From: Planctomycetota bacterium
Lineage (GTDB): Bacteria > Planctomycetota > Planctomycetia > Pirellulales > Pirellulaceae
NCBI GenBank assembly: GCA_024276655.1
Contig: JAJRWU010000255.1
Location: 1 to 47,884 of the forward strand
Length of the DNA stretch: 47,884 nt
Direction of reading: 5' to 3'
In this document: positions 636 through 42,168 of the stretch, one piece after another
How positions within the stretch are numbered: the stretch's first letter is position 1
How the letters are laid out: each line of letters starts with the position of its first letter
The notes under the pieces: model-generated
The model's input: only the letters and a program-made list of their open reading frames with translations
Database searches by the model: none
What the model was told of the DNA's origin: nothing
Made by a program: the position numbers and the translations under genes

Positions 636-721
636 GGAACAGTCCCGAAATAAGTTCTCGGCTGTCGATCAAAAAAGCCCGGCATTTTCAAAATGCCGGG
701 CTTTTAATTCGGCACTGTTAC
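636..721. repeat. Family A palindromic repeat, copy 1 (internally deleted)
   Basis: The left end GGAACAGTCCCGAA matches the left end of the copies at 5761 and 10386. The right end TTCGGCACTGTTAC is a degenerate inverted repeat of it. The central hairpin has arms AAAAGCCCGGCATTT / AAATGCCGGGCTTTT. It is about 13 bases shorter than the 99-bp copies because the segment between the hairpin and the right end is missing. Confidence 0.75.
673..705 (-). terminator. Hairpin terminator downstream of the response regulator (subtype A)
   Basis: Perfect 15-bp stem with an A-run on one side and a T-run on the other, so it can work in either direction. It starts 51 bases past the stop of the response regulator gene. 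Confidence 0.7.
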
Positions 722-755
722 GAATTGCTCCAATGGTCGTTCACCCAGCGCGGCC

Positions 756-1388
756 TCACACCAAGCCCTTGCGCACCGCCCACACGGCGGCTTGGGTTCG
801 ATCGGACACTCCCACCTTCCGCAATATATGCTGCACATGCTCCTTCACCGTTTCGTAGCTGATGTGCAATGTTTGCGCGATTTCCTTGTTGGTCAGCCCC
901 AGAGCCAACTGCCGCAGAACTTCGCTTTCGCGTTGGGTTAGCGGAACTTCGACATCGGCATTGAGACGCGGCGTGGCCAGCGCGCCGGTAACGCGCCGCA
1001 GTTCTTCACGCGTCCAGGCGCTTTCGCCCTTGGCGGCGGTGCGAATGGTCGACAAGAGTTTGTCGCGGGTGGCGCCTTTGAGCACATAGCCAGCGGCGCC
1101 CAAGGCCACCGCGCGCGCCACATACGTGGGATTATCGTACGTGGAGAGCATCACGACGGGCAAATCGGGCCGGTCGAGTTTGATGCGCCCCAGAGCATTC
1201 AAACCATCGCCGTTGGGCATTCTGACATCCAACAGCACGACGCCAGGATTCTCACTAAGCGCTTTTTCGACCGCCTCATTCCCAGACGTGGCTTCCGCAA
1301 TGATCTCGATTTCCGTACCGGCAATGAGGTTTCGCAACCCACACCGCACAACTTCGTGGTCGTCGGCGATAAGAAGTCGGATCGTCAT
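756..1388 (-). CDS. NarL/FixJ-family response regulator transcription factor
   Basis: A 210-residue two-component response regulator. Residues 1-120 form a receiver domain: acidic pair D9-D10, phospho-acceptor D54 in the VVLLDVRMP strand, a Ser/Thr switch in VVMLST and the conserved Lys in GYVLKG. Residues about 145-207 are a LuxR-type HTH (LTQRESEVLRQLA, GLTNKEIAQTLHIS, TVKEHVQHILRKVGV). Phosphorylation by a sensor kinase would change DNA binding. The ATG at 1386-1388 was chosen because it starts directly at the receiver domain and has GGGGAA upstream; an ORF extended to 1505 would add 39 low-complexity residues. No histidine kinase lies next to it, so partner and regulon are unknown. A subtype A hairpin follows its stop. 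Confidence 0.93.
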   Translation of the reverse strand: MTIRLLIADDHEVVRCGLRNLIAGTEIEIIAEATSGNEAVEKALSENPGVVLLDVRMPNGDGLNALGRIKLDRPDLPVVMLSTYDNPTYVARAVALGAAGYVLKGATRDKLLSTIRTAAKGESAWTREELRRVTGALATPRLNADVEVPLTQRESEVLRQLALGLTNKEIAQTLHISYETVKEHVQHILRKVGVSDRTQAAVWAVRKGLV

Positions 1389-1520
1389 GAGCTTCCCCTG
1401 GGAAAAGATCAGCTGGCGGGCGTGGCGGCTGTTTGAATCGCTGGCGCACAGCGAAACATGGCCGGACCGAGCATAGCTCAGCCAGGGGGGGAAAGCAAGT
1501 ACCACCCCCTCCCCAGGTGA

Positions 1521-2576
1521 TCAAGAGGTTGGGTTCGCCAGCACTTCAGGATTACGGGTAACCGTGAAGCCCAGGTCTTCCAGCATTTGGTAATCTTCGT
1601 CGGGCGCTTGGCCTTCGGTGGTCAGGTAGTCGCCCACGAAAATGGAATTCGCGGCGTAAAGACCCAGCGGTTGCAGACTGCGTAAATGCAATTCACGGCC
1701 TCCGGCAATGCGAATTTCTCGGTCAGGATTTGCAAAACGGAACATGGCCAGCGTGCGCAAACAATCGCGAGGGCTCAACGCGTTGCGTGTTTCCAGCGTG
1801 GCGCCTTCAATTTCGATGAGAAAATTCACCGGAATCGATTGCACCCCCAAGTCGCGCAGTTCGAGCGCCATTTGCACCGTGTCTTGCGGTTTTTCCCCCA
1901 TGCCCACAATGCCGCCGGAGCAAATTTCCAGCCCCGCTTCCCGCACGGCGTTCAGTGTGTCGACGCGGTCGTCGTAGGTGTGCGTGGTGCAGATGTTGCC
2001 GTAATGCGCGCGCCCCGTATTGAGGTTATGATTCACCCGGTCGACGCCGCAGTCTGTCAAGCGGCGAGATTGCTCAGCCGTGAGCAGCCCCAAACACGCG
2101 CAAATTTTAAGGTCGTACTGCTGCTTGATTTCAGGAACGATCGTTTCAACCGCCCGCATTTCGCTCTCGCTAGGACCACGCGCCGAGATCACGATGCAAT
2201 ACGTTTTGGCCTGCCTTTCAAAAGCCAGGCGAGCGCCATCGAGCAGTTTTTGGCGATTGAGCAGGTTGTATTTGGGGATTTCCGCGTCGGAGTTTTTCGA
2301 TTGCGAACAATAAGAGCAGTCTTCGGGGCAGAGTCCGCTCTTGGCGTTCATCAAAAAATACAGTTGGACGTCAACGCCGAAATAACGCCGCCTGAGGCGA
2401 AACGCGGCCGCCAGCAGGTCGAGAATTTCAGCGTCCGACGACTCAAGAATCGCCAAGCCCTCCTGGTGGGTGAGTTGGTGTCCGGCCAAAATGCGTTGGG
2501 CGAGCCCGTGCCAAACGCCGTTTTCGTTGGCGGCGGCTGGAGAATCGCACTGGGGAGTGAGGGTCGGTTCGATCAT
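1521..2576 (-). CDS. bioB: Biotin synthase
   Basis: Radical SAM enzyme that inserts sulfur into dethiobiotin, the last step of biotin synthesis; cytoplasmic. The 351-residue length fits the family (about 320-350). The [4Fe-4S]/SAM motif CPEDCSYC has C83, C87 and C90. Downstream are YCIVISARGP, the VNHNLNTGRAHYGNICTTHTY segment characteristic of BioB, and the C-terminal AGGRELHL region expected to carry the [2Fe-2S] ligands. The start is placed at the ATG at 2574-2576 (MIEPTLTPQ); longer in-frame starts to 2981 would overlap the divergent gene and add a non-conserved leader. No strong ribosome site is visible. No other bio genes are nearby, so it appears to be a single-gene unit. Confidence 0.96.
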   Translation of the reverse strand: MIEPTLTPQCDSPAAANENGVWHGLAQRILAGHQLTHQEGLAILESSDAEILDLLAAAFRLRRRYFGVDVQLYFLMNAKSGLCPEDCSYCSQSKNSDAEIPKYNLLNRQKLLDGARLAFERQAKTYCIVISARGPSESEMRAVETIVPEIKQQYDLKICACLGLLTAEQSRRLTDCGVDRVNHNLNTGRAHYGNICTTHTYDDRVDTLNAVREAGLEICSGGIVGMGEKPQDTVQMALELRDLGVQSIPVNFLIEIEGATLETRNALSPRDCLRTLAMFRFANPDREIRIAGGRELHLRSLQPLGLYAANSIFVGDYLTTEGQAPDEDYQMLEDLGFTVTRNPEVLANPTS

Positions 2577-2812
2577 GAGAAGTTCGCGTCGGTGTGTGGG
2601 AGCGCAAAGCCGGTGGGTTCGTTCACATGAAGTATCGTAACGAGAGCAGCGATTGTTGAGAATAGACGGTCTTGCCGTTTCTGGGCCGATATTCGCCGCT
2701 TTCGTGAATCGCCGCCTATCGGTTTCCAGTGGCGGACGGCCATTGCCGCGGGTATGATCGGCGGTGGGGGCGGAAACCGGGTGAACGTCGGCGCTCTGGG
2801 GATATAGAATTC

Positions 2813-3361
2813 GTGTCACAATTGCACTTGGTGAGAGTTGGCCTCTTGGGCTCCGTGGGGCGATTTCAAGCCTCTGGCGCCGAGCGGTTCGAGCGCGGCG
2901 CGCGGGTGGTCTGCCAAACCGACCGCGGTCTTGAAGTGGGCGAAGTGCTAGCCGCCCTAGCCCTGGGAGAAGACATTTCACGAGCCGATGGCCAATTGCT
3001 TCGTGGACTGACCTCCGAAGACGACATGCTCTTGGAGCGGCTGACGCGGCACAAAGAAGAAGCGTTCACCGCTTGTGAGCGGCTGCTGCGCGAGGCCAAT
3101 CTGGAAGCCACCCTGATGGATGTCGAACATCTGTTTGATGGCCGCTCACTGTACTTTTATTTCCTCGGCCAGACGCCTCCCGAAGTGGAGTTGCTGACCG
3201 CGCAATTAGCCCAAACCTATGAGGCCCAAGTGCAATTTCGGGAGTTTTCCGAAACTCTGGCTCAGGGCTGTGGACCGGATTGCGGCGTCGGAGAAAAAGA
3301 AGATTGCGGCGATGGCTGCATTTCGTGCCACATCGCGGCGGCTTGCCCTAGCAAAAACTGA
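2813..3361 (+). CDS. PSP1-domain protein with cysteine-rich tail (RicT/YaaT-like)
   Basis: A 182-residue protein with the PSP1 fold: LVRVGLLGSVGRF at the start, then RVVCQTDRGLEVGEVLA, a helical segment HKEEAFTACERLL, and DGRSLYFYFLGQTPPEVE. PSP1 proteins include RicT/YaaT of Bacillus, part of an iron-sulfur complex that affects RNA maturation; that role is only an analogy here. The last 35 residues carry six cysteines in the order C-x3-C-x7-C-x3-C-x2-C-x5-C, a plausible metal or cluster site. The protein is shorter than Bacillus YaaT (about 275 residues). I prefer the GTG at 2813 because homology-like sequence starts there; an ATG at 2729 would extend it by 28 basic residues. It diverges from bioB. 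Confidence 0.72.
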   Translation: MSQLHLVRVGLLGSVGRFQASGAERFERGARVVCQTDRGLEVGEVLAALALGEDISRADGQLLRGLTSEDDMLLERLTRHKEEAFTACERLLREANLEATLMDVEHLFDGRSLYFYFLGQTPPEVELLTAQLAQTYEAQVQFREFSETLAQGCGPDCGVGEKEDCGDGCISCHIAAACPSKN

Positions 3362-3704
3362 ATCGGTCCAACGCGGCAGTCGGGAGAGTGGAGGAAGAGA
3401 TAGCCCGCAGGCTGCAACAAAGCCGAAGCGGTCGCGCCGCTCCAAGAAACGCCTGCTCCAAGAAAAAAAGAAAGGGGACACCGGCGGGGCAGACGCCGGG
3501 GACCCCCTCTGTCGGGACGATTTCTCGCCCCTAACAGAAGTTTCATCGGGATTTTCACTAATAAAGGTGAGTGTTTTAAAGCGAATGCGGATACTCACAA
3601 GCCATTAGCGGGCTGTTTCATGCAGCCTTTTTCGATCAGACAGGTTAAACGCGGAATGATCGGGTAGAATGGGGTGTTTGGCCACACAGGAGGATGAAAG
3701 ACGC
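3362..3704. other. Gene-free interval between the PSP1 gene and the SGNH hydrolase
   Basis: No convincing coding sequence. It contains an A/G-rich stretch (3410-3480), a small hairpin with T-run (3611-3632) and the AGGAGG ribosome site of the next gene (3688-3693). Confidence 0.5.
3611..3632 (+). terminator. Weak hairpin with T-run
   Basis: GGCTG / CAGCC stem of 5 bp, 7-base loop, then five Ts. It is far (250 bases) from the upstream stop, so function is uncertain. Confidence 0.3.
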
Positions 3705-4835
3705 ATGTCGAAGTTACGGATTTTGCTGCTTGCCGCGTTTGTGTTATGCATTGTACAGCGGACGCAGGCCGAACCTGGTGTCGCCGTCTCGCCGGTGCGA
3801 GTCGATGAAAAACAAGGGCTGGACTGGCGCCGCGCTCAAGATATCGGCCTCAGCGGACAAGGCTGGGCGAACACGAAGGCGCCGTTTGATCGCCTTCCCG
3901 CAAAAGCGGAGAAAATCGTCCGCCGGCCGGTTTGGTCGCTGAGTCGCCATTCGGCGGGAATCTATGTTCATTTCACCACCAACTCGCCGAAAATCAGCGT
4001 GCGTTGGAAGCTCATCGGAAAAAATCTGGGCATGCCGCATATGCCGGCTACCGGTGTGAGCGGCGTCGATTTGTACGTCCGCTGGCAAGGCAAGTGGCGT
4101 TGGCTGGCCAATGGTCGTCCGACCAAGTGGCCGGTGAATGAACAAGAAATGGTGGCCGGGCTATCGCCTGAAAATCGGGAGTACCTGCTTTTCCTGCCGC
4201 TTTACAATGGCGTCAGCGAAGTCGAGATCGGGGTCGCGGCGGGGAGTCAAATCGAGCGCACGGTTTCGTCCGGCAAGAAGAAAAAACTCCCCATCGTGTT
4301 TTGGGGCACCTCGATCACCCAAGGTGGCTGCGCCTCCCGACCGGGAATGGTCCATACCGCCATATTGGCCCGCCGCCTTGACCGGGAAACGATCAACCTC
4401 GGTTTCTCGGGCAACGGAAAAATGGAACTTGTAATGGCCGGCCTGTTGGCTGAAATCGAGGCTGCCGTTTATGTGCTCGACTGCCTGCCGAATCTCAATG
4501 CGAAAGAAGTCGCGGAGCGCACCGAACCGGTGGTGCGCATCCTACGAGCGGCGCACCCCTACACGCCGATCTTGCTGGTTGAAGATCGAAACTACCCCAA
4601 CGGTTTCCTGGTGGCCAGCCTGCGAATCCGCAACGCGACCGATCAGGCGGCGCTGCGCGGCGCGTTTGAGAGGCTTCAAGCCGCCGGAGTTGGTGATCTT
4701 TTTTACCTGGAGGGCGAGAAACTTTTGGGCCCAGATGGCGAAGATACGGTCGACGGTTCGCATCCGACCGATCTCGGCTTCGTGCGCATGGCCGACGCTT
4801 TTGAAAAAGTGCTGCGTCCGCTGCTCGAAGAATGA
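3705..4835 (+). CDS. Secreted SGNH/GDSL-family hydrolase
   Basis: A 376-residue exported esterase/acylhydrolase-type enzyme. Residues 1-22 are a Sec signal peptide ending QRTQA. Residues about 40-185 form a beta-rich N-terminal domain of the kind found in the SsfX3-like group. The SGNH domain follows: block I VFWGTSITQGGCA with nucleophile S203, GFSGNGKMEL (G235-N237 region) for the oxyanion hole, LDCLPN, and block V with D350-G-S-H353 completing the catalytic pair. The family removes acyl groups from carbohydrates or lipids; the natural substrate cannot be read from sequence. Start chosen at the ATG at 3705 because AGGAGG lies 11 bases upstream and the signal peptide begins there. A bidirectional hairpin separates it from the convergent next gene. 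Confidence 0.88.
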   Translation: MSKLRILLLAAFVLCIVQRTQAEPGVAVSPVRVDEKQGLDWRRAQDIGLSGQGWANTKAPFDRLPAKAEKIVRRPVWSLSRHSAGIYVHFTTNSPKISVRWKLIGKNLGMPHMPATGVSGVDLYVRWQGKWRWLANGRPTKWPVNEQEMVAGLSPENREYLLFLPLYNGVSEVEIGVAAGSQIERTVSSGKKKKLPIVFWGTSITQGGCASRPGMVHTAILARRLDRETINLGFSGNGKMELVMAGLLAEIEAAVYVLDCLPNLNAKEVAERTEPVVRILRAAHPYTPILLVEDRNYPNGFLVASLRIRNATDQAALRGAFERLQAAGVGDLFYLEGEKLLGPDGEDTVDGSHPTDLGFVRMADAFEKVLRPLLEE

Positions 4836-4867
4836 TCAATCTGAATAGGACTCGCTGAACCAACGTA

Positions 4868-4900
4868 AAAAGCCCGGCATTTTCGAAATGCCGGGCTTTT
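4868..4900. terminator. Bidirectional hairpin terminator between convergent genes (subtype A core)
   Basis: Arms AAAAGCCCGGCATTT and AAATGCCGGGCTTTT around a 3-base centre. It lies 33 bases after the SGNH hydrolase stop and 18 bases after the stop of the opposite gene. Only the core of the family A repeat is recognisable here; the terminal repeats are not. Confidence 0.85.
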
Positions 4901-4917
4901 ATTTCTAGAACCAAAGC

Positions 4918-5538
4918 CTATTTCTTTTTCGCCGCGCTGCGAGCCTGATGCAACGCCTCCACAAACTGCGCTTCGGTGTAGATGCGACCGGTGGGGCGGC
5001 GAAGGTTTTTCACCTGCGGCGACTTGCCGGAACGCCCCTTGGGCAAAAACTCCTCCATGCTCGGCGCGCCCTGATGCACTTTCCACTTGGCGTATCGGTG
5101 GCCATCCGGCAGACGTGCTAAATCGTGGATGAGTCGCTGTCCGCCGGTCATGGCGCCGATGCGATCGAGCCGATCAAAAATGAGTCGGTAAGACGATGTC
5201 TTGCGCATAAACGCTTTCCCCTTGGTGGTTCGCATCTCGCGCACCAAAAGATGGTTTGCGGGCAACATCTCTTCCAGCAGCGGCAATTTCGTGGCGCCTC
5301 GCCAACCCTTCTTTTCCAGTTGGGTCATCAGTGTGGAAACATCGTCCCGCGAAATGAGGTCGCCTTTTCGATAACCTTTTAGTTGGGAGAAATGGTCTTG
5401 CACGAGCGCGTCGATCCTCGCCACGCTCGGCATTTTTTTTGATTTTCGGGCCGCGAGTGAAATCGTTGGCGCCAACACCAAGCATGCCAAAATCACGGCT
5501 AGGAGTCGGCCGGAGCGGCGCTGCGCGAGGGAGGTCAT
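4918..5538 (-). CDS. Secreted protein of unknown function
   Basis: A 206-residue protein I do not recognise. Residues 1-30 are a signal peptide (positively charged start, core LLAVILACLVLAP, cleavage near SLAA). The mature part is basic, with KSKKMPSVARID, a helix-rich centre containing LVQDHFSQLKGYRKGDLI and SYRLIFDRLDRIGAMTGGQRLI, and a Lys-rich tail (RSAAKKK). No catalytic motif or membrane segment after the signal is visible. The start is the ATG at 5536-5538 with GGAGAG upstream; a longer frame to 5643 has no signal-like start. It converges on the SGNH hydrolase gene and shares its terminator hairpin. Confidence 0.7.
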   Translation of the reverse strand: MTSLAQRRSGRLLAVILACLVLAPTISLAARKSKKMPSVARIDALVQDHFSQLKGYRKGDLISRDDVSTLMTQLEKKGWRGATKLPLLEEMLPANHLLVREMRTTKGKAFMRKTSSYRLIFDRLDRIGAMTGGQRLIHDLARLPDGHRYAKWKVHQGAPSMEEFLPKGRSGKSPQVKNLRRPTGRIYTEAQFVEALHQARSAAKKK

Positions 5539-5760
5539 CTCGATACTCTCCAGGGTGGGACGCGGGCAGGACAGATAAAAAGACACCGAGAAAATGCAAA
5601 CGCCATGAAAGCCGCAACGCGGCGCAGCGGCTGATTCCCACAACGGAGGTGTGAGAATTGGCGCATACGTTATTCCACACTCTTTTAGCTATCGAGCTGC
5701 TGTGCGTCGGCACTTCAAGCCTGTCAAAAACGACCGGTTATAACGATTACTCGCCGGCCA

Positions 5761-5859
5761 GGAACCGTCCCGAAATAAGTTCCCGGTGGTAGCTCAAAAA
5801 AGCCCGGCATTTTCGAAATGCCGGGCTTTTAATTCAGTAGGTAAATTCGGGACGATTCC
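5761..5859. repeat. Family A palindromic repeat, copy 2 (complete, 99 bp)
   Basis: Terminal inverted repeats GGAACCGTCCCGAA and TTCGGGACGATTCC differ at one position when paired. Between them are AGTTCCCGGTGGTAGCTC and the perfect hairpin at 5798-5830. It is roughly 89% identical by eye to the copy at 10386. No ORF is encoded. Confidence 0.88.
5798..5830 (-). terminator. Hairpin terminator downstream of the amidohydrolase (subtype A)
   Basis: 15-bp stem AAAAGCCCGGCATTT / AAATGCCGGGCTTTT with flanking A and T runs, about 40 bases 3' of the amidohydrolase stop. Confidence 0.75.
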
Positions 5860-5871
5860 TAAACGGTTCCG

Positions 5872-6828
5872 CTACGAAAAGAACACGCGGGCGGCGGTTT
5901 TACGCAAGAGCCACTGGCGGTCGCCGGCGGAGAGGTCGGGGTAGTGTTTGAGAATCAGGTTGATGGAAGGGCCGTAATGGTGGCCGTTCACAACCTGAAA
6001 CGGTCCGTCACTGGCCCACATCAGCCGTTCGGGGCCGAAGGCGTCGAGCAAGCGGCGAATCATCGGCAACAGATCGGTATAGGGCGCCTGTTTTTTTCCC
6101 AACGCATAAAAGGCCGATGTTTTTACCGAGACCTTCCGATGGCGCGCCAAGTTGCAAAGCGCCTGAATATCGTGCTCCCGCACGACGCCATCAATACCGA
6201 TGCGGGCGAAGTGATCGATCACCACGGGCGTATCGGGGTGTTCGCGGCACATGCGGTCGACCGACGGCAAATACTTTGCGTCGATCAAATGGCACATCGC
6301 CAAACCATGCTCCGCCCCGCATCGCCACATCGCCTTCATGCCCTCGCTCCGCAGCCACTGTTGCGGTGAGTTGCTTTGCGGACGAATCCTAAAACCGCGC
6401 ACGCCTTTCGCTTTCATTTCCAGCATGGTTTCCGCCGGACGGCTGTTTTCGTCGATCACGGCGACGCCCGAAAACGAGCCGGCGTGTTTGTGCATCATGT
6501 CGAGCATGTAGGAGTTGTCGTAGCGGTAATAACTCATCTGGATGAGCACGATCTTCGACACGCCCAGCGGGCGGGCGTGTGAGAACAACTCCTCGGGCGT
6601 GAAACTGGGCGGCTTCATATCCTCACGAACAAAACCCTCGGCCAGCGGATAGTTTTTCAGGTCGGGCGTCCAGACATGCACATGCGCGTCGATATACCCC
6701 GGATTTTTTTGAGGTGCGGCCATGAGCGAACTCCGGGCAATGGCCGCCGTTGCAACAGTTGCCGCGACGCTCCTGGAAATGAAGCCACGACGTGTCACGC
6801 CGGAGAGGTTGTTGGTGTTTGCAGTCAT
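5872..6828 (-). CDS. Tat-exported amidohydrolase (amidohydrolase 2 family)
   Basis: A 318-residue metal-dependent hydrolase of the family that includes L-fuconolactonase and 2-pyrone-4,6-dicarboxylate lactonase. The N-terminus has a twin-arginine signal (TRRGFISRS, residues 12-20) and an Ala-rich hydrophobic stretch to about residue 38. The barrel starts with YIDAHVHVW, whose H49 and H51 are the usual first metal ligands. Further expected residues are the His in AMCHLIDAKY, VVIDHFAR, and the Asp in WASDGPF near the C-terminus. This suggests hydrolysis of a lactone or ring ester outside the cytoplasm. The substrate is unknown. A link to the sugar-acid operon at 39-47 kb (lactonase step) is conceivable but they are not adjacent. 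Confidence 0.85.
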   Translation of the reverse strand: MTANTNNLSGVTRRGFISRSVAATVATAAIARSSLMAAPQKNPGYIDAHVHVWTPDLKNYPLAEGFVREDMKPPSFTPEELFSHARPLGVSKIVLIQMSYYRYDNSYMLDMMHKHAGSFSGVAVIDENSRPAETMLEMKAKGVRGFRIRPQSNSPQQWLRSEGMKAMWRCGAEHGLAMCHLIDAKYLPSVDRMCREHPDTPVVIDHFARIGIDGVVREHDIQALCNLARHRKVSVKTSAFYALGKKQAPYTDLLPMIRRLLDAFGPERLMWASDGPFQVVNGHHYGPSINLILKHYPDLSAGDRQWLLRKTAARVFFS

Positions 6829-6930
6829 GCTGGATTCTCAATAATGATGTCGTTCGGCCTTGGCTGCATATGCAGGACCGTTGGGCGAATGGGCGGCGCT
6901 TTTCATTTCGTGAAAGTAGTATTCTAACAC

Positions 6931-7029
6931 GGAGCGAAAGGCGACAATAAGACAATTATTTCCCGGAAAAGCCCGGCATTTTGAAAGTGCCGGGCTTTTA
7001 ATTCGAGAAGTTAATTCGCGACACGCTCC
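6931..7029. repeat. Family A palindromic repeat, copy 3 (divergent, 99 bp)
   Basis: It has the same length and layout as the copy at 5761, with a central hairpin at 6967-6999, but the ends are GGAGCG...CGCTCC rather than GGAAC...GTTCC. The right end abuts the stop codon of the M16 peptidase gene. Confidence 0.65.
6967..6999 (-). terminator. Hairpin terminator downstream of the M16 peptidase pair (subtype A)
   Basis: AAAAGCCCGGCA / TGCCGGGCTTTT stem with one interior mismatch, 30 bases after the M16 stop. Confidence 0.75.
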
Positions 7030-8267
7030 TAGGCTGGCGCCGCCAGTTCGGTCAAGGGGCCGACCGAGAGCGTTGTGTTGACCGCCAGGGGAAAACGGCG
7101 GGCCATGGCTTCGATATCGTTTTTTGTCACGGCTTGGTAGGCTTGCACGGTTTCCTTAACAGTGCGGTATTTGCGACGTTGGATCCAATTCGAGCCCAGC
7201 GAAAACAGCCGATTCCCCGGCCGTTCGCTCTGCAACACCACGTGCGCACTGGTTTTGGCGATAGCCCTCCGCAGTTCATCCTGGCTGACGCCGGTCTGGG
7301 AAAAAGCAACTTGCATTTCATGCAGGCGGCGTATGTTCTCTTGGGTGTCTTGGGGGGCGCAACAGAGGAAGGTCATGAGCAATCCGGCGCCTTGGTATTC
7401 GTAGGCGCCGCAACTCGCATACTCGGCCAGCCCCGATTCGACAAACTCCCAATACAGGCGGCTGCCGCAATCGTCGCCGAAAATGGTGGCCATGATGCGG
7501 CTGGCGTAGCGGGCCTCGTCTTCGGCCGCCGGGCCGTTGCTTAACTGCACGGTGTATTGTTGGGCGGCTTTGTCGTGGGCCAGAAAATCGAAGCTTTGAT
7601 GCGCTGGCGTGGGCGGTGTTTGGCGAGACGTTGGGAACGCCCGCCACTGGCCGCACTGCTTCTCCGCCTCTTGCACGAGGGCCTCGAAATCGACATTGCC
7701 GGCCGCCGCCAGCACCATCCCGCCGGGGCTGTACCGCTGCTCGAAGTACGCGCGCATGGCGCTGGGCGTGAGCGCCGTGACCGACTCGACCGAACCCAAA
7801 ATATTTCGCGCCAAAGGATGCTCGCCGAAGTGGGAGGCCATGCATTTTTCATGGGCGCCGAACGGCGGTTGGTCGTCGTATTTATAGATCTCTTCGATGA
7901 TGACTTTTTTCTCGGTTTCAAAATCATCTTCCCGCAACGAAGGTCGCATAATATCACACAGCAGCGCCACGGCCCGCGTTTGCAGGTCGGGCAACACGGT
8001 GGCGTAATAAACCGTTTGCTCTTCACTGGTGAAGGCGTTGCAGTGCGAGCCCATTTCGTCGAGTTCGCGATTCACCTCGGCGGCCGTTCGATGCGGCGTA
8101 CCCTTGAACGCCATGTGCTCCAGGAAATGGCTCACGCCGGAGTTGGCGTCGTTTTCATCACGCGAGCCAGCCTTGACAAAAAACGCAATCGCGGTGGAGT
8201 ACGCCGCCGGATTGCACTCGGCAATCACTTCCAGGCCGTTTTCCAGTATGTGTTCACGAAACTCCAT
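7029..8267 (-). CDS. M16-family zinc peptidase, catalytically complete subunit
   Basis: A 412-residue M16 (insulinase/processing-peptidase) protein. The inverted zinc motif HxxEH is intact as H47-F-L-E50-H51, and the third ligand region VIIEEIYKYDD (E125/E126) lies about 75 residues downstream as in the family. It has no obvious signal peptide. The start is the ATG at 8265-8267, which overlaps the end of the upstream M16 gene by 14 bases, so the two are almost certainly translated together. In bacteria such pairs work as heterodimers: this subunit supplies the zinc site and the other a substrate-positioning Arg/Tyr pair. Substrate unknown. Expected to be cytoplasmic or periplasmic; sequence does not decide. 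Confidence 0.93.
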   Translation of the reverse strand: MEFREHILENGLEVIAECNPAAYSTAIAFFVKAGSRDENDANSGVSHFLEHMAFKGTPHRTAAEVNRELDEMGSHCNAFTSEEQTVYYATVLPDLQTRAVALLCDIMRPSLREDDFETEKKVIIEEIYKYDDQPPFGAHEKCMASHFGEHPLARNILGSVESVTALTPSAMRAYFEQRYSPGGMVLAAAGNVDFEALVQEAEKQCGQWRAFPTSRQTPPTPAHQSFDFLAHDKAAQQYTVQLSNGPAAEDEARYASRIMATIFGDDCGSRLYWEFVESGLAEYASCGAYEYQGAGLLMTFLCCAPQDTQENIRRLHEMQVAFSQTGVSQDELRRAIAKTSAHVVLQSERPGNRLFSLGSNWIQRRKYRTVKETVQAYQAVTKNDIEAMARRFPLAVNTTLSVGPLTELAAPA

Positions 8268-9537
8268 CGGGCGGCTCCAAGGGTTGTTCGCCAAGCGTGA
8301 CGATGGTGAAGTCCGCCGGCGGATGCTCCGCCAAATACGCATTGATGCTCTGGCAACTCAGGCGGTCGACATGCTCGCCCAACTCAGCCAGCGTTCTCAC
8401 CCGATTCAAATGATGCCATTCGGCGGCCACGCCGCTGCTCCGCGCCTGGCTCGATTCCTGTATCATGATCAGGGAGCTTTTGAGCCGGGCCTTGAGGCGG
8501 TCAAGTTCGCCTTGCTCCACGCCTTGCCCCAAGCGAATCAGTTCGGCTGTCATGACATCCAGCGTTTCTTGCGCCCGTTCGGTGCTGGTTCCGGCATAGC
8601 AGAGCACGGCGCCATGGCCCCGATGCGCGCTGCCCATCGAAGCGTAAACCGTGTAACACAGGCCCCGATTCTCCCGCACTTCGGTAAACAGGCGGGAGCT
8701 CATGCCGTCGCTCAACACGCCAATGGCGCCCCGCGCCTGGAAATAATTGGGGTCGGCGTAGGGAACGCTAGCAAACGCCACGCCGATTTGCGTTTGTTGC
8801 GAAGCCTGCTGCAAATGTTCGTAGCCGCCGCTGGCCGGCGTTTCCGGCGGCGCGGTCTGCGGGCGATCTTTCCAGTCGGCAAAAATTTTGCCGACGTGCT
8901 CCCGCAGCGACTCCCATTCGATTTTTCCGGCCACGCCCAAAATGGCGCCGCGCGGCACATAATTATTTTGGAAACTGGCTTGCACGTCTTGCAGGGTCGC
9001 TTGTTCGATGGCGACCAACTCGCCCGGCGCGGAGCGTCCATAGGGCGCGGGATAATGACGCCGCCGCAGTCCGCTCATCAGCCGCTGGGCCAGTTCATCT
9101 TCGATGGCGCGAATTTCCTGCACGCACACCATTTTGCCTTCTTCGAGTTGCTCGCCGGGCAAATGCGGGCGGAGCACCAAATCGGCGAAGATACCGAGCA
9201 CTTCCGGCAGCGTGTCGGCCAACATGGCGCCGCCGAAGCTGGTGTGCGTATTGGAAACCGAAGAAGAGGTATCGGCGCCAAGGTTCTCCAGATCTTCCAC
9301 GAACCGGCGGCTGTCTCGCTGGCCGCAGCCGCGTTGCACCATTTCGCAGGTCAGATTCGCCAGGCCCACGCGATTCGGGGCATCGTAAATGCAGCCGGCC
9401 GGCAGCAGCAAGGTAAAGGCGGCTGATTCCAACCAGGGCATCGGCTCGGCCACCAGGACCAAACCGTTTTCGTACTCATGACTCAGTATCGGCGGCGACA
9501 CGTAAAGCTCTCGCAAGGCGGACCGGCCGCGACTCAT
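8254..9537 (-). CDS. M16-family peptidase, non-catalytic partner subunit
   Basis: A 427-residue M16 protein whose zinc motif is degenerate: the HxxEH position reads N61-L-T-C-E65. It retains the C-lobe motif SRLFTEVRENRGLCYTVYA with R282 and Y295, the Arg/Tyr pair that binds substrate in the non-catalytic subunit of heterodimeric M16 enzymes. Together with the overlapping downstream gene this is a complete active/inactive pair. I placed the start at the ATG at 9535-9537; a GTG at 9576 would add 13 Cys-containing residues. No strong ribosome site supports either choice. Confidence 0.9.
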   Translation of the reverse strand: MSRGRSALRELYVSPPILSHEYENGLVLVAEPMPWLESAAFTLLLPAGCIYDAPNRVGLANLTCEMVQRGCGQRDSRRFVEDLENLGADTSSSVSNTHTSFGGAMLADTLPEVLGIFADLVLRPHLPGEQLEEGKMVCVQEIRAIEDELAQRLMSGLRRRHYPAPYGRSAPGELVAIEQATLQDVQASFQNNYVPRGAILGVAGKIEWESLREHVGKIFADWKDRPQTAPPETPASGGYEHLQQASQQTQIGVAFASVPYADPNYFQARGAIGVLSDGMSSRLFTEVRENRGLCYTVYASMGSAHRGHGAVLCYAGTSTERAQETLDVMTAELIRLGQGVEQGELDRLKARLKSSLIMIQESSQARSSGVAAEWHHLNRVRTLAELGEHVDRLSCQSINAYLAEHPPADFTIVTLGEQPLEPPDGVS

Positions 9538-9624
9538 CGAACAGTCACAGCCGGGAAACCGGGCGCCAGAACACACGTTTTAGGCTGCGGCGTCCGCCAC
9601 ATCCAGGCGGGCGGCCAAGCGCCA

Positions 9625-9686
9625 TTGGAGTGTACGTTTCAGCGTGCATTCTACTAGACGAAAACACGCTGAAGGGTACACTCCAA
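9625..9686. repeat. Family C palindrome, copy 1 (possible terminator)
   Basis: 22-base arms beginning TTGGAGTGTACGTTTCAGC and ending GGGTACACTCCAA pair with only two mismatches around an 18-base loop. It lies 59 bases past the stop of the GNAT gene on the minus strand. A related palindrome occurs at 47173-47246. Confidence 0.8.
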
Positions 9687-9745
9687 CGGTGGGCGGCAAA
9701 GTGCGTTCCTGCGGGTCCGGGAAACGGTAGAGCGTACCGTTTGCC

Positions 9746-10354
9746 TCAGGCGTACGCAACCTCCACGGCTTTGTAGACCGTTTTGAATTTGCGAAAACCT
9801 AGCTTTTCATACAGCCGCACGGCGCCGGCGTTTTGGGCGGTCACTTCGAGCACGGCCCTGCGCAAACCCTCCGCCCGAAAGCCATCCAGCGCCTGCAAGA
9901 GTAGTTGGGCGCCGAGCCCTTGCCCGCGATGGTGGGGCGCCACGCCTAAATTTTGGATCGCGCCGGCGCCATCGCTATCGAGTATGCCTTGCACGGTTCC
10001 GCAGAATTCAGCCGTCGGCTGGCCGCCGCCAAAAGCCGAACCGAAGGCGGCGCCTTCCGGCAGAGTGGGAGAGCTGGCCGTTTTACGCAGCAACCAGGTT
10101 GCCGCGGGAAGGAATCCTGGCTTGCGGACAATTTCCCGCATCAGCCGATAACAGCCGTCGCGGTCGCCCAGACAAGGAAACACGTTGGCGTCGAGCTCGA
10201 AACAAAAACTGCGGTATTTGGTGGTTGCGTGTGCATCGAGCAACGAATCACGCCAGGCGACGAATTCATAACACTCAGGCAGTTCGCAGGTGGAAACGGG
10301 CGCTGCGGTTAGGTCGCATTCCATACCGTAACGCTTGAAGTAGGTCACGCCCAT
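9746..10354 (-). CDS. GNAT-family N-acetyltransferase
   Basis: A 202-residue protein with a C-terminal acetyl-CoA-binding GNAT domain: strand NLGVAPHHRGQGLGAQLL (pyrophosphate loop R143-G-Q-G-L-G148), then VLEVTAQNAGAVRLYEKLGF, the standard motif A/B ending. The first 110 residues (MGVTYFKRYGMECDL and a Cys-containing segment) have no recognisable family; they may form a substrate-specificity lobe. The start is the ATG at 10352-10354 with GAGGG upstream. A longer frame to 10441 runs into a family A repeat and is rejected. Acceptor substrate unknown. Confidence 0.87.
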   Translation of the reverse strand: MGVTYFKRYGMECDLTAAPVSTCELPECYEFVAWRDSLLDAHATTKYRSFCFELDANVFPCLGDRDGCYRLMREIVRKPGFLPAATWLLRKTASSPTLPEGAAFGSAFGGGQPTAEFCGTVQGILDSDGAGAIQNLGVAPHHRGQGLGAQLLLQALDGFRAEGLRRAVLEVTAQNAGAVRLYEKLGFRKFKTVYKAVEVAYA

Positions 10355-10385
10355 TCCGTTCGCCCTCAAACTAACAATCGCCTGG

Positions 10386-10484
10386 GGAACAGTCCTGAAA
10401 CAAGTTCCCGGTGGTAGCTCAGAAAAACCCGTCATTTTCAAAATGCCGGGCTTTTAATTCAGTCTGTAAATTCGGGACTGTTCC
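10386..10484. repeat. Family A palindromic repeat, copy 4 (complete, 99 bp)
   Basis: Left end GGAACAGTCCTGAA, right end TTCGGGACTGTTCC (one mismatch when paired). It shares AAGTTCCCGGTGGTAGCTC with the copy at 5761. The central hairpin at 10423-10455 has mismatches in the left arm (ACCCGTCA against TGCCGGGC), so this copy is decaying. Confidence 0.88.
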
Positions 10485-10667
10485 TTGGAGCGTGGTGTCG
10501 GTTGCCCCTAACGGCAGATGCATCGTATCGCTCCCGCAGGGCGTGGTCAACGAAATGACTTCTCGCTGCGGCGGGAAGTCTGGAAAAACACACTGAAGCG
10601 CGCCCTCCCACCGGCAATCGGGTGGAAAACGATAAGTACCGCTCGATAAATAAACGGTCGCATTTGT

Positions 10668-10732
10668 GTAGCCATCGTCGCCAGACGGTGGGTGAGCGGT
10701 GAACCATCCCACGCTCTGGCGAGCATGGCTAC
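10668..10732. repeat. Family D palindrome
   Basis: 25-base arms from GTAGCCATCGTCGCCAGA to TCTGGCGAGCATGGCTAC, with four mismatches as two symmetric dinucleotide swaps, and a 15-base loop. It lies 52 bases 3' of the secreted-protein gene at 10784 (minus strand) and may act as its terminator. Confidence 0.75.
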
Positions 10733-10783
10733 GACACTAATTTTCCGCTCGATGCTAAATTCGGGACGCTTGCCAACCTGGAA

Positions 10784-29586: not shown

Positions 29587-29684
29587 AAAGCTACGCACGA
29601 ATAGTTCACGCAAATAAAAGCCCGGCATTTCAATAATGCCGGGCTTTTTTGAGCTACAACCGGGAACTTATTTACGGACGAGCC
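29587..29684. repeat. Family A palindromic repeat, copy 5 (inverted orientation, about 98 bp)
   Basis: Read on the minus strand it contains AAATAAGTTCCCGG, then TTGTAGCTCAAAAAAGCCCGG, matching the left half of the copy at 5761. The plus-strand left end is degenerate. It fills the whole space between the rpoC stop and the methylase stop. Confidence 0.75.
29616..29648. terminator. Bidirectional hairpin terminator between rpoC and the methylase
   Basis: 14-bp arms AAAAGCCCGGCATT / AATGCCGGGCTTTT with a 5-base loop, 29 bases after the rpoC stop. T-run on the plus side is six bases. Confidence 0.85.
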
Positions 29685-36858: not shown

Positions 36859-36931
36859 GGAATATGGCTCCGTGTGAGAAAATAAATGAGTGAAGAAAGC
36901 GTGGAACTATAAAATCCCGCAGTGGCGCCTG

Positions 36932-36964
36932 AGAAGCCCGGCTTTTTGAAAAAGCCGGGCTTCT
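36932..36964 (-). terminator. Hairpin terminator (subtype B) between the epimerase and oxidoreductase genes
   Basis: Perfect stem AGAAGCCCGGCTTTTT / AAAAAGCCGGGCTTCT, 48 bases past the epimerase stop. Read on the minus strand, flanking GGAAAGTCTGAAAACTAC and TTCCCGGTTCAG resemble the left half of family A. Confidence 0.75.
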
Positions 36965-37011
36965 GAACCGGGAAGTAGTTTTCAGACTTTCCAACGTATT
37001 GGCTGCAAGTT

Positions 37012-37890: not shown

Positions 37891-38432
37891 GATTCCTTGC
37901 TCCCTTTATTTGTAACGGTTCACCCTGTTTTCCGCATATCTGGGTTTCATTTTCTTCGAGTTTCTTTTGGCTTGCAATCAGAGGGCTTGCCGATGGCATG
38001 AGAAAGGTAGGCCATCGGCAGTGTCCACTGGGCAATATTTTTTTGTTAGGTCAGCCGTTTCGCGACTTGCAAAAAACACCATTGACGTAAGTTGTTTTTC
38101 CTATTTCGATATCGACAGCCGGGCAGTGTGGCCGCAGTCATCGCGCGTTGCTATTGTGATGGTAGGAAGAAAGAAAGCAAAAAGCATCGGCCAATCGCTC
38201 CCGCTTCCTTGGCGCCGAAGGCAACAGCCGGCGACTGCACGCTCGCACGCTCGGGGCGTTGCCGATTATTTGAAGGAAGTCAGCCGGATCGAGTAGATCC
38301 CCAAAAAATGGCCGACTTTTCAACAACGAGATGTGCGGAAAATAAGGTTCACGGTTAACTGGAAAAGCCACCTCTCATTCAGAAACCCGGCTTTTTCAAA
38401 AAGCCGGGTTTCTCAAACGCCATTTCAGGAAC
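37891..38432. other. Gene-free interval upstream of the epimerase gene
   Basis: 542 bases containing the subtype B hairpin at 38381-38413 and presumably the epimerase promoter. Short frames on the plus strand here have no motif or ribosome site. Nothing else is recognised. Confidence 0.5.
38381..38413 (-). terminator. Hairpin terminator downstream of the FadR-type regulator (subtype B)
   Basis: AGAAACCCGGCTTTTT / AAAAAGCCGGGTTTCT. Relative to the copy at 41005 it carries a paired change in the stem (GCCC to ACCC with GGGC to GGGT), which keeps the pairing. 19 bases past the regulator stop. Confidence 0.8.
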
Positions 38433-39242
38433 TCATTGTTCCGCGCATTCCTTGCCAGCCGCCGAACACGCTGGCGGAGGTTGGCGGATCTGGTCGAGTA
38501 GCGAATTGTAGGCGTCTTGCAGGTGGGCCTGTATTTCGGTCTGGGCGATGGCAACGTCACCGGCAACGAGCGCCGAATAGAGCCGGGCGTGCGATTCGTC
38601 GGTTCGCAGATGACGCTCGTCCGACCAGCGAAGTTCTTGCAGGTGCGGCTCCAGTTCTTCCAGCAGCGCGCCAAGCATTGCGGTCATGACCGCGTTGCCC
38701 GACAAACGGGCAATTTCGAGATGAAACGCGATATCGAGCGGCGTGTAGCGGTCGTGGCGCTGCTCAGGTGGAATCGCGGCCATTTCCTCCAAGATGCGTC
38801 GTAGGGGGAAGAGGTCTTGCAGTTCTCGTTTGCGTGCCGCGCGGGCGATCAAATCGAGCTCCAGCGTTTCTCGTGCGTCCAATAGATGGAACAGGTTCTG
38901 GTCTTGCGCGGCAAGCAGTTCACGCAAACGCGCGCCGGTTCGTCCCGCCGTCGTGACGTTGGTCGGCAATTTATCGACCGCCTCCACGAACGCGCCCGCT
39001 CGCGGCAGCACCTTGATAATTCCCCTGCCTTGGGCGTCGAGCAACGTATCGCGAACAACGCCCACCTTCACGCCAAATTTGGAAGCCAAGTCGCGTATGG
39101 AAGGCAGCCGGTCGCCGGGTTTGAGTTGATGTTCGGCAATAAAGCGGCCAAGCAAATCAGCCACGTCGGCAGGTCGGCTGGCGGGGGCTGATGTGGCCAA
39201 GGGTTGTACCTTCTTACGAAAAAACACAGGTAATTGCGTCAC
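38433..39242 (-). CDS. GntR/FadR-subfamily transcriptional regulator
   Basis: 269 residues. The winged HTH covers about 25-90 (LLGRFIAEHQLKPGDRLPS, IRDLASKFGVKVGVVRDTLL, GIIKVLPRAGAFVE) and the FCD ligand domain about 105-245, with DIAFHLEIARLSGN and DESHARLYSALVAGD carrying the usual metal-binding Asp and His residues. FCD regulators sense organic or sugar acids and most often repress adjacent operons. It is divergent from the aldolase-bicupin gene, with 100 bases between them containing two 21-bp palindromic sites. The start is GTG at 39240-39242; no strong ribosome site. Confidence 0.93.
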   Translation of the reverse strand: MTQLPVFFRKKVQPLATSAPASRPADVADLLGRFIAEHQLKPGDRLPSIRDLASKFGVKVGVVRDTLLDAQGRGIIKVLPRAGAFVEAVDKLPTNVTTAGRTGARLRELLAAQDQNLFHLLDARETLELDLIARAARKRELQDLFPLRRILEEMAAIPPEQRHDRYTPLDIAFHLEIARLSGNAVMTAMLGALLEELEPHLQELRWSDERHLRTDESHARLYSALVAGDVAIAQTEIQAHLQDAYNSLLDQIRQPPPACSAAGKECAEQ

Positions 39243-39342: not shown

Positions 39343-41001
39343 ATGAAACCTCGGGCGTTGCAAAATTTTCGCGGCAAACTGGCGCGGGGTGAATCGGTTC
39401 ACGGCCTCTGGGTGACGCTCGAATCGGCCACGCTCACAGAAATGGCCGTGGCGTTGGGGTTGGACTGGGTCGTGATCGACGCCGAGCATGGTCATCTTGA
39501 TTGGAAAGATATCAATGAGCACATTCGCGCGGGGCTGCGCAGTGATACCGTCGTGTTGGTGAGGTTGGCCGAACGCAGCACATCGCTGACAAAACGCGCG
39601 CTCGATATCGGCGCCGACGGCGTCGTTATTCCATGGGTGGAATCGGCAGCGCAACTCGAAGCAGCCGTGGCCGATTGCCGTTATCCGCCGGAGGGTCGGC
39701 GCGGCATTGGCGGGGAGCGAGCGACCGTGTGGGGCCAATGTTTTGCCGAACATGCGGCCGAGGCGAATGAGCATGTGCTGGTCGTGCCGATGATCGAAAG
39801 CGTGGCCGCGATTCCGAACGTGGCCGCGATGTGCGACGTCGACGGCCTGGACGCATTCTTTTTTGGGCCGGCCGATTTTTCCTCCTCCGCCGGCTTTAGC
39901 GGTCAGTGGGAAGGGCCGGGAGTCGCGGAGCAAATTCTGGAATTGAAAGACACCATCCACTCGGCTGGAAAATACTGCGGCCTGATCACAACCAGCGTCG
40001 AAGATTTGAAACGGCGGCGCGAGCAGGGATTTCAGATGCTCGGTCTGGGCGCCGATACCGGGCTCTTGTTGCGCTCGTTGCATGCGTCGCTGCAAGCGGT
40101 GGGTGGCGACCGTTTGCCAGCCACGAGCCTCGAACCGGCGGACGGACGAGCCGTTCAATTGCCACTCCCCCAACCGCCGGCGCACATGCAACCCGATCGC
40201 GAAGAAGTCATCACGGAACTCAACGAGGGCGAACCGGTGGAGTTGCAGGCGGGCGTCTGGCTCACGCCATTGGTTGGCGGCTTCAATACAGCTCGCAATC
40301 TGACCACCGGCATCGTGACTCTCGAACCCCAAGCCTCGCTCGACTGCCACAGGCATCCTGGCAGTGAGGCGGTCACGGTGTTGGAAGGCGAAGCCGAGAT
40401 CACGGTGGAAGGCCGCGTGTATCGCTTGGCCCCGTTAGATAACATCGTCATTCCCCGCTGGCTGCCGCATGCATCGAAGAACCCGAACGCGACAAAACCC
40501 TCGCGGCTGCACGTCGCACTTGCCATGAGCACGCCGGAGCGGGAGCTCGTATCGCGCGAGTTCACTCGCATCGAGACGCCCGCCGATTCCAACGGCCTGC
40601 CGGGGTTTGAACGCGTGACCCGTTTCCAAACCGCGAAGCGAGTGGGCGGCGTCGGTCCTGGCGTTGCATTCATCGACTACTTCAATGCCGAACTGGTTCC
40701 AGGGCTCGAAATGAGCGGCGGCTTCGCGCGTTTCCAAGTTGGCGGACGCCTGCCCTCGCACCTGCATGATTTTGACGAATCGATCTGCATCGTGGCTGGC
40801 GAAGCGAACTGCCTAGTGGAAGGACGGCGGTACGCGCTTGCGAACTGTGCCACGGCAATGGTTCCACGCGGCCGGGTTCACTATTTCATCAATGAATCGA
40901 CCACCACGATGGACATGATCTGGGTCTATGCCGGACCGATGCCGGAGCGAATCTTGATCGAGGAAGATTACCTAGTCAAGCGAGGGAAAACGACGTCCTG
41001 A
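39343..41001 (+). CDS. HpcH/HpaI-family aldolase fused to a bicupin
   Basis: 552 residues with two parts. Residues 1-255 are a class II HpcH/HpaI aldolase: IDAEHGH with catalytic H49, VVLVRL with R74, metal ligands E152 (VPMIES) and D178 (FFFGPADFS). The family cleaves 2-keto-3-deoxy sugar acids to pyruvate and an aldehyde (RhmA cleaves 2-keto-3-deoxy-L-rhamnonate). Residues about 295-540 are two cupins with complete metal sites: H336, H338, E342 and H376; H473, H475, E479 and H513. The junction is a Pro-rich linker (LPLPQPPAHMQP). Cupins of this type are often sugar isomerases, dioxygenases or ligand sensors. First gene of the catabolic cluster. A hairpin follows its stop at 41005. Confidence 0.88.
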   Translation: MKPRALQNFRGKLARGESVHGLWVTLESATLTEMAVALGLDWVVIDAEHGHLDWKDINEHIRAGLRSDTVVLVRLAERSTSLTKRALDIGADGVVIPWVESAAQLEAAVADCRYPPEGRRGIGGERATVWGQCFAEHAAEANEHVLVVPMIESVAAIPNVAAMCDVDGLDAFFFGPADFSSSAGFSGQWEGPGVAEQILELKDTIHSAGKYCGLITTSVEDLKRRREQGFQMLGLGADTGLLLRSLHASLQAVGGDRLPATSLEPADGRAVQLPLPQPPAHMQPDREEVITELNEGEPVELQAGVWLTPLVGGFNTARNLTTGIVTLEPQASLDCHRHPGSEAVTVLEGEAEITVEGRVYRLAPLDNIVIPRWLPHASKNPNATKPSRLHVALAMSTPERELVSREFTRIETPADSNGLPGFERVTRFQTAKRVGGVGPGVAFIDYFNAELVPGLEMSGGFARFQVGGRLPSHLHDFDESICIVAGEANCLVEGRRYALANCATAMVPRGRVHYFINESTTTMDMIWVYAGPMPERILIEEDYLVKRGKTTS

Positions 41002-41004
41002 TTC

Positions 41005-41037
41005 AGAAGCCCGGCTTTTTGAAAAAGCCGGGCTTCT
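41005..41037 (+). terminator. Hairpin (subtype B) between the aldolase-bicupin and dehydrogenase genes
   Basis: AGAAGCCCGGCTTTTT / AAAAAGCCGGGCTTCT, a near-perfect stem starting 4 bases after the stop. No long T-run; may reduce downstream expression rather than end it. Confidence 0.65.
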
Positions 41038-41046
41038 AAAACGCCA

Positions 41047-42168
41047 ATGCGGAACACAAATGATTCATGTTTCCTTGCCTCACCACAAAAGCAGCCCGTG
41101 AATAATTCACCACGACCAGCCTTTCGTATTGCCCAGACGGCCGACTTTTACGATGAAGCCGGCGAGCCCAAGTTCGCCGATTTGGGGTTGGGCGTGTTCG
41201 AGGGGCAGAGGCACATCGTGGTCTCGAAGTTCAGCGAACACCAGGCGGAAATCGCGCCGGCGCAGTTGGCCGACGCGCAGGGCGTGATCGTGTTGACGCC
41301 GCAAGTGACGGCCGATTCGTTGGCCGCCTGCGACGAACTGTTGGCCGTCGGGCGATTTGGCGTCGGCTACGATAATGTCGATGTGGCGGCCTGCACTGCG
41401 AACAACGTGCTGGCGATGATCACCGCCGGAGCGGTCGACCGCCCGGTGGCGGAAGCGACCCTCGGCTGGATGCTCGCCCTGACACACCACATGCTCGTAA
41501 AAGATCGGCTGGTGCGCAGCGGACAATGGGACGACCGAACCCAATACATGGGCTGCGAACTGCGCGACCGCACGCTAGGCGTGATCGGGCTGGGCGGCAT
41601 CGGGCGAACGCTCGTGACGCTGCTGCAAGGGTTTGGAATGCAACAGCCCGTTGCTTTTGATCCGCTGGCGCCGGCCGAGGTGTTTGAAGAACTGGGTGTC
41701 CGACGAGTGGGGCTTGATGAGCTGCTCGGCACGGCAGATTTTGTCTCGATCCACTGCCCGTTGAACGAGCAGACGCGAGGCTTGATCGGCGCCGCGGAAT
41801 TGCAACGTATGAAACGCGGCGCGTATCTGATCAACACGGCGCGGGGCGGCATCGTGGATGAAGACGCACTGTTCGCCGCTCTCAAAAGCCGGCGGATCGC
41901 CGGCGCGGCGCTCGATTGCTTCGCCGAAGAGCCGGTCAAAAAACCGCACCGATTCGGCGAACTCGAAAACGTCATTCTGGCCCCGCACTCCATCGCCTGG
42001 ACAGCCGAACTGTTTCGCGATATCGGCCGCACCGCCTGCCAAGGCATGCTCGACCTCTCGCTGGGAAAAAGACCGACCGGCGTTCTGAATCCTGAACTGT
42101 TTGCGCAGGAAAGTTTTCGGGTGAAGTGGTCTCGGATCACAGCGATACCCCAGGAGGGCTTGGAATGA
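41047..42168 (+). CDS. D-isomer-specific 2-hydroxyacid dehydrogenase
   Basis: 373 residues. NAD-binding motif GLGGIG (181-186) with the acidic position of the second strand in AFDPLAP, substrate loop FGVGYDNVD, catalytic R266 (NTARGGIVDE), E295 region (CFAEEP) and H314 (LAPHSIAW). The family oxidises or reduces 2-hydroxy acids such as phosphoglycerate or glycerate. Start is weakly defined: ATG 41047 has no ribosome site, and a GTG at 41098 is possible. The stop overlaps the next start (ATGA at 42165). Probably handles an aldehyde- or acid-derived intermediate of the cluster's pathway. Confidence 0.88.
   Translation: MRNTNDSCFLASPQKQPVNNSPRPAFRIAQTADFYDEAGEPKFADLGLGVFEGQRHIVVSKFSEHQAEIAPAQLADAQGVIVLTPQVTADSLAACDELLAVGRFGVGYDNVDVAACTANNVLAMITAGAVDRPVAEATLGWMLALTHHMLVKDRLVRSGQWDDRTQYMGCELRDRTLGVIGLGGIGRTLVTLLQGFGMQQPVAFDPLAPAEVFEELGVRRVGLDELLGTADFVSIHCPLNEQTRGLIGAAELQRMKRGAYLINTARGGIVDEDALFAALKSRRIAGAALDCFAEEPVKKPHRFGELENVILAPHSIAWTAELFRDIGRTACQGMLDLSLGKRPTGVLNPELFAQESFRVKWSRITAIPQEGLE

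Follow-up and report, generated by a model that had tools for sequence, protein, structure and literature searches.

The window considered here is a 47,884-nucleotide stretch of DNA from a Planctomycetota bacterium of the Pirellulaceae (contig JAJRWU010000255.1 of assembly GCA_024276655.1), and corresponds to one contig (C185) of a 5.96 Mb genome, G000, that is divided into 328 contigs. It contains, in and between its open reading frames (ORFs), copies of two short repeat families, A and B (Table 1). Family A, the principal subject of this analysis, is a non-coding element of ~99 bp that holds no transposase gene and carries the same 14-bp terminal inverted repeat (TIR), GGAACNGTCCCGAA, at both ends, with two arms enclosing a hairpin core; family B follows the same plan with different arms. 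A previous sequence-only reading had placed family A copies at 636, 5761, 6931 and 10386, with an inverted one near 29587, and all five exist, the third starting at 6930 and the inverted copy occupying 29612-29682. The length of ~99 bp given there for complete, non-coding copies holds for those at 5761 and 10386, which are 89% identical to one another, the remaining three being partial, and the 15-bp hairpin described was borne out by folding (-44.4 kcal/mol for the whole 5761 copy). The terminator type of this hairpin, and the presence of family B at 36.9, 38.4 and 41.0 kb, had been overlooked.

Table 1. Family A and family B copies in the window, with their state in the sister genome G001
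Feature	Position	Strand	Remarks
Family A copy	636..735	+	Decay at the right end (72%), with left arm and hairpin preserved; orthologous place in G001 lacks an A/B match
Bare family A hairpin	4866..4911	+	Arms unrecognisable; also in G001
Complete family A copy	5761..5859	+	Different intergenic sequence in G001
Terminator-type hairpin core of the 5761 copy	5798..5830	.	33 nt, 15-bp stem, -22.5 kcal/mol
Family A copy	6930..7028	+	Left arm decayed (61%); right end abuts stop of ORF 7029-8342 (-); shared with G001
Complete family A copy	10386..10484	+	Hairpin with mismatches; shared with G001
Inverted partial family A copy	29612..29682	-	Left arm and hairpin only; between ORF 25240-29586 (+) and ORF 29685-32162 (-); shared with G001
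Family B copy	36895..36990	+	Absent in G001, other sequence there
Family B copy	38354..38450	-	Shared; G001 misses half of the hairpin
Family B copy	40977..41074	-	Contains stop codon of ORF 39343-41001; absent in G001, 104-bp length difference

The genome G001, corresponding to the metagenome-assembled genome (MAG) 'Planctomycetaceae bacterium isolate SZUA-33' (100% identity over kilobases), is the sole other representative of the genus in our 60-genome comparison set, which additionally comprises 35 genomes of the family and 23 of the order; it is syntenic with G000 across the window, with identity mostly at 92-96% (~95%). Within G000 we worked on a sample of 703,602 bp, made up of the window, five match-bearing contigs and the initial 20 kb from each of 20 contigs picked by number (C2-C24 minus C4, C14 and C17, in which copies were already known; 282,165 bp). 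The genome search returned at least 80 match rows at E <= 0.001 with 40 of 554 candidates scored, half of them being the palindromic hairpin on the opposite strand, and a profile of family A identified 96 distinct sites (E < 1e-3) in the sample, 37 of them in the by-number contigs, at about the same density as in the remainder. Assignment to the better-fitting model gave 68 A and 32 B copies among 181 sites placed in five repeat families, which extrapolates to ~575 A and ~270 B copies per genome (roughly 800 in total), an abundance far above chance.

This abundance is confined to one genus within the set. Family A DNA matched only G000 and G001 at E <= 1e-5; none of the 58 searched genomes of other genera (35 from the family, 23 from the order) gave a match at that cut-off. 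A search for the arm pattern over 84,980 species found 15 stretches, all in the SZUA-33 MAG, in a collection from which records close to the window may be missing. The sequence-only reading would have been refuted by a consensus limited to its own sites or by copies fixed at the same positions in distant relatives, and neither is the case. Family B matched three of the 60 genomes, the third (G024, of a related genus) by its hairpin except for one match: of nine stretches read there, eight are bare GAAGCCCGGCTTTTT-type hairpins without arms, and the ninth (L212) carries a right arm resembling that of family B. Because such bare hairpins occur in G024, we infer that the core looks like a host-type terminator that may have been captured between transposon ends.

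Evidence for mobility comes from the element ends and from comparison of the two genomes. The TIR was recognisable at both ends in 106 of the 192 distinct sites in all DNA examined (orthologous G000 and G001 copies counted apart), and the flanking triplets were identical in 30 of these 106 copies, orthologous copies from both species included, as against 7.8 after shuffling (maximum 16 in 1000 shuffles). Duplications of 1 and 2 bp showed no excess, and those of 4 bp numbered 3 vs 1.1; the flank consensus is C-TNA-[GGAACNGTCCCGAA ... TTCGGGACNGTTCC]-TNA-G, giving family A a 3-bp target-site duplication (TSD). At C125:30357 the triplet CAA stands on the left, on the right and in G001. The 3-bp duplication is shared by two further families that lack the family A hairpin, C (23/32, shuffled 9.6) and F (11/18, shuffled 4.0), and family B has one clean empty site, compatible with TA.

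For 43 G000 sites, mostly higher-scoring ones since tags were chosen in score order, an orthologous place could be identified in G001. Fourteen of 24 near-full copies (A 10/19, B 4/5) and 4 of 19 partial ones had no A/B match there (P 0.028); decayed copies are more often shared with G001 than intact ones. The length difference was exactly 102 bp (= 99 + 3) at four sites (L063:4892, C313:23866, C320:55628 and C313:82607), and 98, 99, 100 and 104 bp at C125:30357, C313:18408 and, for family B, C320:16641 and window 40977, respectively. In the reverse direction, 27 G001 copies had an orthologous place in the G000 sample, where 1/10 near-full A, 2/14 partial A and the single partial B copies were absent and two near-full B copies were present; these figures are not a rate, as most G001 rows were obtained via G000 sites. 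With two genomes, insertion and precise loss cannot be told apart. The likeness to a miniature inverted-repeat transposable element (MITE) proposed in the sequence-only reading is supported by the TIRs, the 3-bp TSD, the sites lacking the element in the sister species and the high copy number.

Family A might instead be immobile: a terminator of the usual host kind, or a structured RNA, whose arms are conserved and whose copies arose through vertical descent and gene conversion. Such an origin would accommodate the armless GCCCGGC hairpins of G024 and the copies that stand at the same place in G001, and it could draw on the observation that TIR positions pair with one another above shuffles (348 vs 300.1, sd (standard deviation) 10.1; clearest at positions 5 and 9-12). 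Related subfamilies can explain this pairing, however, for which reason we did not use it as a sign of an RNA role, and the empty sites in the sister, the TSD, the occurrence of full arms at unrelated places and the restriction to one genus all speak against immobility, which we consider very improbable.

A candidate mobilising enzyme was sought in both genomes. There was no match to DDE_Tnp_4 in G000 or G001, and none to IS630 in G000; three IS630 matches in G001 included no cognate transposase. Some groups of IS5 insertion sequences (ISs) make 3-bp TNA duplications, and IS5-like loci are present in both genomes; those looked at were rejected as cognates, as they have other TIRs, namely GAGTCTATCCGGAAATTG (L182, one end only) and GAGCCTGTTTTTGAAT (L168/L181), or, at L183, no family A TIR. 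The likeness to IS5-family MITEs extends to the TNA duplication, and membership is not claimed. An IS4-like element of G001 (L166; C254, 1188-2742) was also rejected: GGAACAGTACCGAA looked at first to be common to its ends and to family A, and the matching letters proved to be a direct 11-bp repeat, GGTACTGTTCC at both ends, which most probably represents the target site duplicated by that IS rather than its TIR. The resemblance of this repeat to a family A end would suit insertion of the IS into such an end. Five TIR-like sites in the G000 sample and seven in the G001 rows lay at a distance of over 110 bp from any hairpin, two of each being copies with mutated hairpins (window 10386, L148); no long element was seen at the remainder, which were viewed as short snippets, with two regions at more length, and not each followed.

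The sequence-only reading had also suggested a repetitive extragenic palindromic (REP) or REPIN-type element, which would be moved by a REP-associated tyrosine transposase (RAYT; Y1 HUH transposase). Family A is indeed palindromic, intergenic and of high copy number, and G000 contains two Y1_Tnp (RAYT-type) genes, L038 (C129) and L037 (C50; one stop codon inside). Each has repeats other than family A on its flanks, family D (TTCGGCTTGCCGTTAAACG) and family E (CCGGTGGTGTTCGCTGCGCTCGACCACCGG), respectively, with which it probably forms a REPIN system of this genome; no family A TIR lies beside either. REPIN/RAYT elements are not known to make a target duplication, and given the 3-bp TSD of family A we regard this affiliation as most unlikely.

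The core of the element, AAAAGCCCGGCATTTTSAAAATGCCGGGCTTTT, has a 15-bp stem with AAAA/TTTT tracts on both sides, so that a hairpin followed by a T tract can be read on both strands and intact copies look like a bidirectional intrinsic terminator. Gene ends were scanned over 150 nt behind each stop codon by a rough home-made rule (stem, GC and T tract) on similarly rough home-made gene calls (530 genes in the G000 sample), the meaningful result of which is the comparison of G000 with relatives and not any absolute number. Terminator-like hairpins were found at 61 of 427 gene ends in the G000 sample, the first match lying inside an A or B copy for 46 (shuffled 3), although one element between convergent genes may count for two ends; a looser cut-off gave 71 gene ends, 45 in A/B (shuffled 3). 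The same scan on 200 kb from each of two relatives of the same bacterial family, neither of which had yielded the element, returned 6/102 (G012) and 6/111 (G007), or 7 and 6 at the looser cut-off, such that G000 differs from the two combined (61/427 vs 12/213, P 0.0009). Once the A/B hits are subtracted, the remaining 15/427 shows no difference from the relatives (P 0.22). Families A and B are thereby shown to hold most of the predicted terminator-like hairpins behind genes in the sample.

Several window copies had been described as abutting stop codons, with insertion at, or selection for, gene ends as the suggested cause. Stop codons do abut family A copies at 7029 and 29685; the closest to the 5761 copy is 13 bases away, and none abuts the copy at 10386. 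Among 101 recognised A ends in the sample, eight have a gene stop codon directly abutting and three a stop completed by the element's first G, so gene-end insertion stands for a part of the copies (11/101 ends). This part is explained by the target itself, because TNA includes TAA and TGA: gene stop codons of these two types make up 385 of 5,850 (6.6%) non-coding TNA triplets. Clustering at stops is also seen in terminator-free control families, which marks it as a property of the target rather than of the terminator. Between genes, family A occupies 18 convergent, 38 tandem and 8 divergent positions (4 copies at edges) and family B 7, 18 and 5 (2 inside gene calls), as compared with 13/21/7, 4/17/5 and 4/5/1 for the terminator-free families C, F and G; as a proportion of all gene pairs, A or B lies between 24/84 convergent, 54/340 tandem and 13/80 divergent pairs.

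Taken together, we think it very likely that the related families A and B represent a non-autonomous MITE of ~99 bp carrying a terminator-type hairpin, moved in trans and with its hairpin retained behind genes. Its movement would depend on a DDE transposase generating 3-bp TNA duplications, an IS5-like enzyme being a guess; with TAA and TGA among the TNA triplets, some copies would land on a stop codon, keep the stop in place and set an intrinsic terminator directly behind the gene; copies behind genes would be tolerated or useful, and as their arms decay the hairpin would stay as the terminator of that gene.

A number of observations weigh against this account. Searches with PF01609, PF13358, PF13340 and PF13359 (G000 and G001) and with PF01797 (G000 only) yielded no autonomous partner with a family A TIR; both genomes are fragmented, and multi-copy ISs may be missing. 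Identical flanking triplets are lacking in 76 of the 106 copies, including both complete window copies (CCA/TAA at 5761, TGG/TTG at 10386), and several empty sites show two triplets one base apart (e.g. TGA/TTA at L063), which is not fully explained. The TSD of family B could not be established, only 9 or 10 copies having readable ends. Near-clean absences account for 8 of the 14 near-full copies missing from G001, the other six having further changes or a different G001 sequence. Placement driven by the terminator was rejected, the orientation pattern of A and B between gene pairs being indistinguishable from that of families C, F and G, and, among the 25 sites shared by G000 and G001, two copies that are near-full in G000 have a broken hairpin in G001 (L069:15103 and the family B copy at window 38354; 2/10 near-full shared sites).

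These last two observations favour the view that the element is a MITE whose terminator is a neutral or selfish passenger, insulating the element or softening its insertion at gene ends with no gain to the host, and we rate this as a serious contender, at slightly less than even chances. Against it stands the relative conservation of the hairpin. Of the 23 remaining shared pairs, three with arms more than 35% different were left out, and in the other 20 the core differs at 30/664 positions and the arms at 186/1346; with the three restored the values are 41/764 and 283/1582. Partial copies are biased towards intact hairpins, because sites were found partly via the hairpin, and the near-full set is less so; in the eight near-full pairs alone the core had still changed less than the arms (13/264 vs 59/534; P 0.004, the test having been run with 532). 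Compensatory stem changes were observed in two pairs (L076:3354 and C275:55036, the second also with one broken pair). Both observations count against a mere passenger, and the element may be kept for its hairpin.

A broader reading, which we offer tentatively and as somewhat less probable than the passenger alternative, is that the intrinsic terminator supply of this genus is run by a MITE with a stop-codon-including target and a bidirectional terminator, whereby terminator density would be raised two- to four-fold, turnover between sister species would occur by transposition, and bare hairpins would be kept after arm decay. The origin of new intrinsic terminators has so far been mostly guesswork, and the occupied and empty places in two ~95% identical species allow site-by-site tests of what a newly arrived terminator does to the gene it follows.

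Mobile terminator-like repeats are known in principle. The closest precedent is SPRITE, the pneumococcal Rho-independent terminator-like element, of which there are 30 copies with a TIR of only AAAA/TTTT and a hairpin followed by a U-rich tract, for which no TSD or empty site was establishable, and whose co-option as a terminator has already been proposed (PMC3049150). Like family A, it is a small interspersed terminator-like repeat found near gene 3' ends and in a few close relatives only; unlike it, family A has hundreds of copies (extrapolated), a 14-bp TIR, a 3-bp TSD, empty sites and a hairpin readable on both strands, and so presents a clearer case, with the terminator-type hairpin lying within a unit that has TIR, TSD and presence/absence. 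A 2024 review of MITEs calls terminators within them 'conceivable', citing SPRITE (PMC10969869); the prokaryotic MITEs it covers share short length, lack of coding capacity, TIR and TSD with family A, in which, by contrast, a terminator-type hairpin forms the core and gene-end counts have been compared with relatives. The terminators of ISs have been termed 'mobile attenuators' (PMC2965389), where transposable elements likewise spread terminators; those belong to ISs or prophages and lie upstream of genes, whereas many of the copies of family A, a MITE, lie behind genes. REPs associated with a RAYT (GTAG/CGTC repeats) are abundant intergenic palindromes that include those of Planctomycetes (PMC3733652), a likeness to family A that ends at its lack of a RAYT link, its TSD and its ~99-bp length with TIRs. 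No description of the family A element was found in the open-licence PubMed Central (PMC) papers searched, in which 'SZUA-33' is unmentioned. The addition to these precedents is the combination, in one MITE, of TIR, TSD and empty sites with a terminator-type hairpin that is bidirectional; its copies number in the hundreds (extrapolated) and contain most of the terminator-like gene-end hairpins of the sample.

Further repeats were noted in passing. Family C is MITE-like, ~120 bp in length (GCACCGCTCGATAAAT ... CGCTCGATGC), with 43 sample sites, and was seen at window 10632-10756 (absent in G001 there) and in L056 and L182; family F, of ~145 bp with the TIR GGCGAGYGGCRGATGAAAAT, has 28 sample sites and adjoins an A copy at L069 15105-15197. 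At L044 (~2550-2660; G000:C26), tandem GTCGAGTAAACCC copies stand next to a shared family A copy, with fewer in G001. To the left of the window copy at ~10384, G001 has ~1 kb of extra, apparently coding sequence, and window 33865-33962 is a stretch present only in G000, with a TTGCCGTTAAAC repeat, in place of ~9 bases in G001. Finally, at window 17711-17770 and 17836-17901, ORF 17606-18502 contains short tandem repeats that keep the reading frame (units of 15 and 18 bp).

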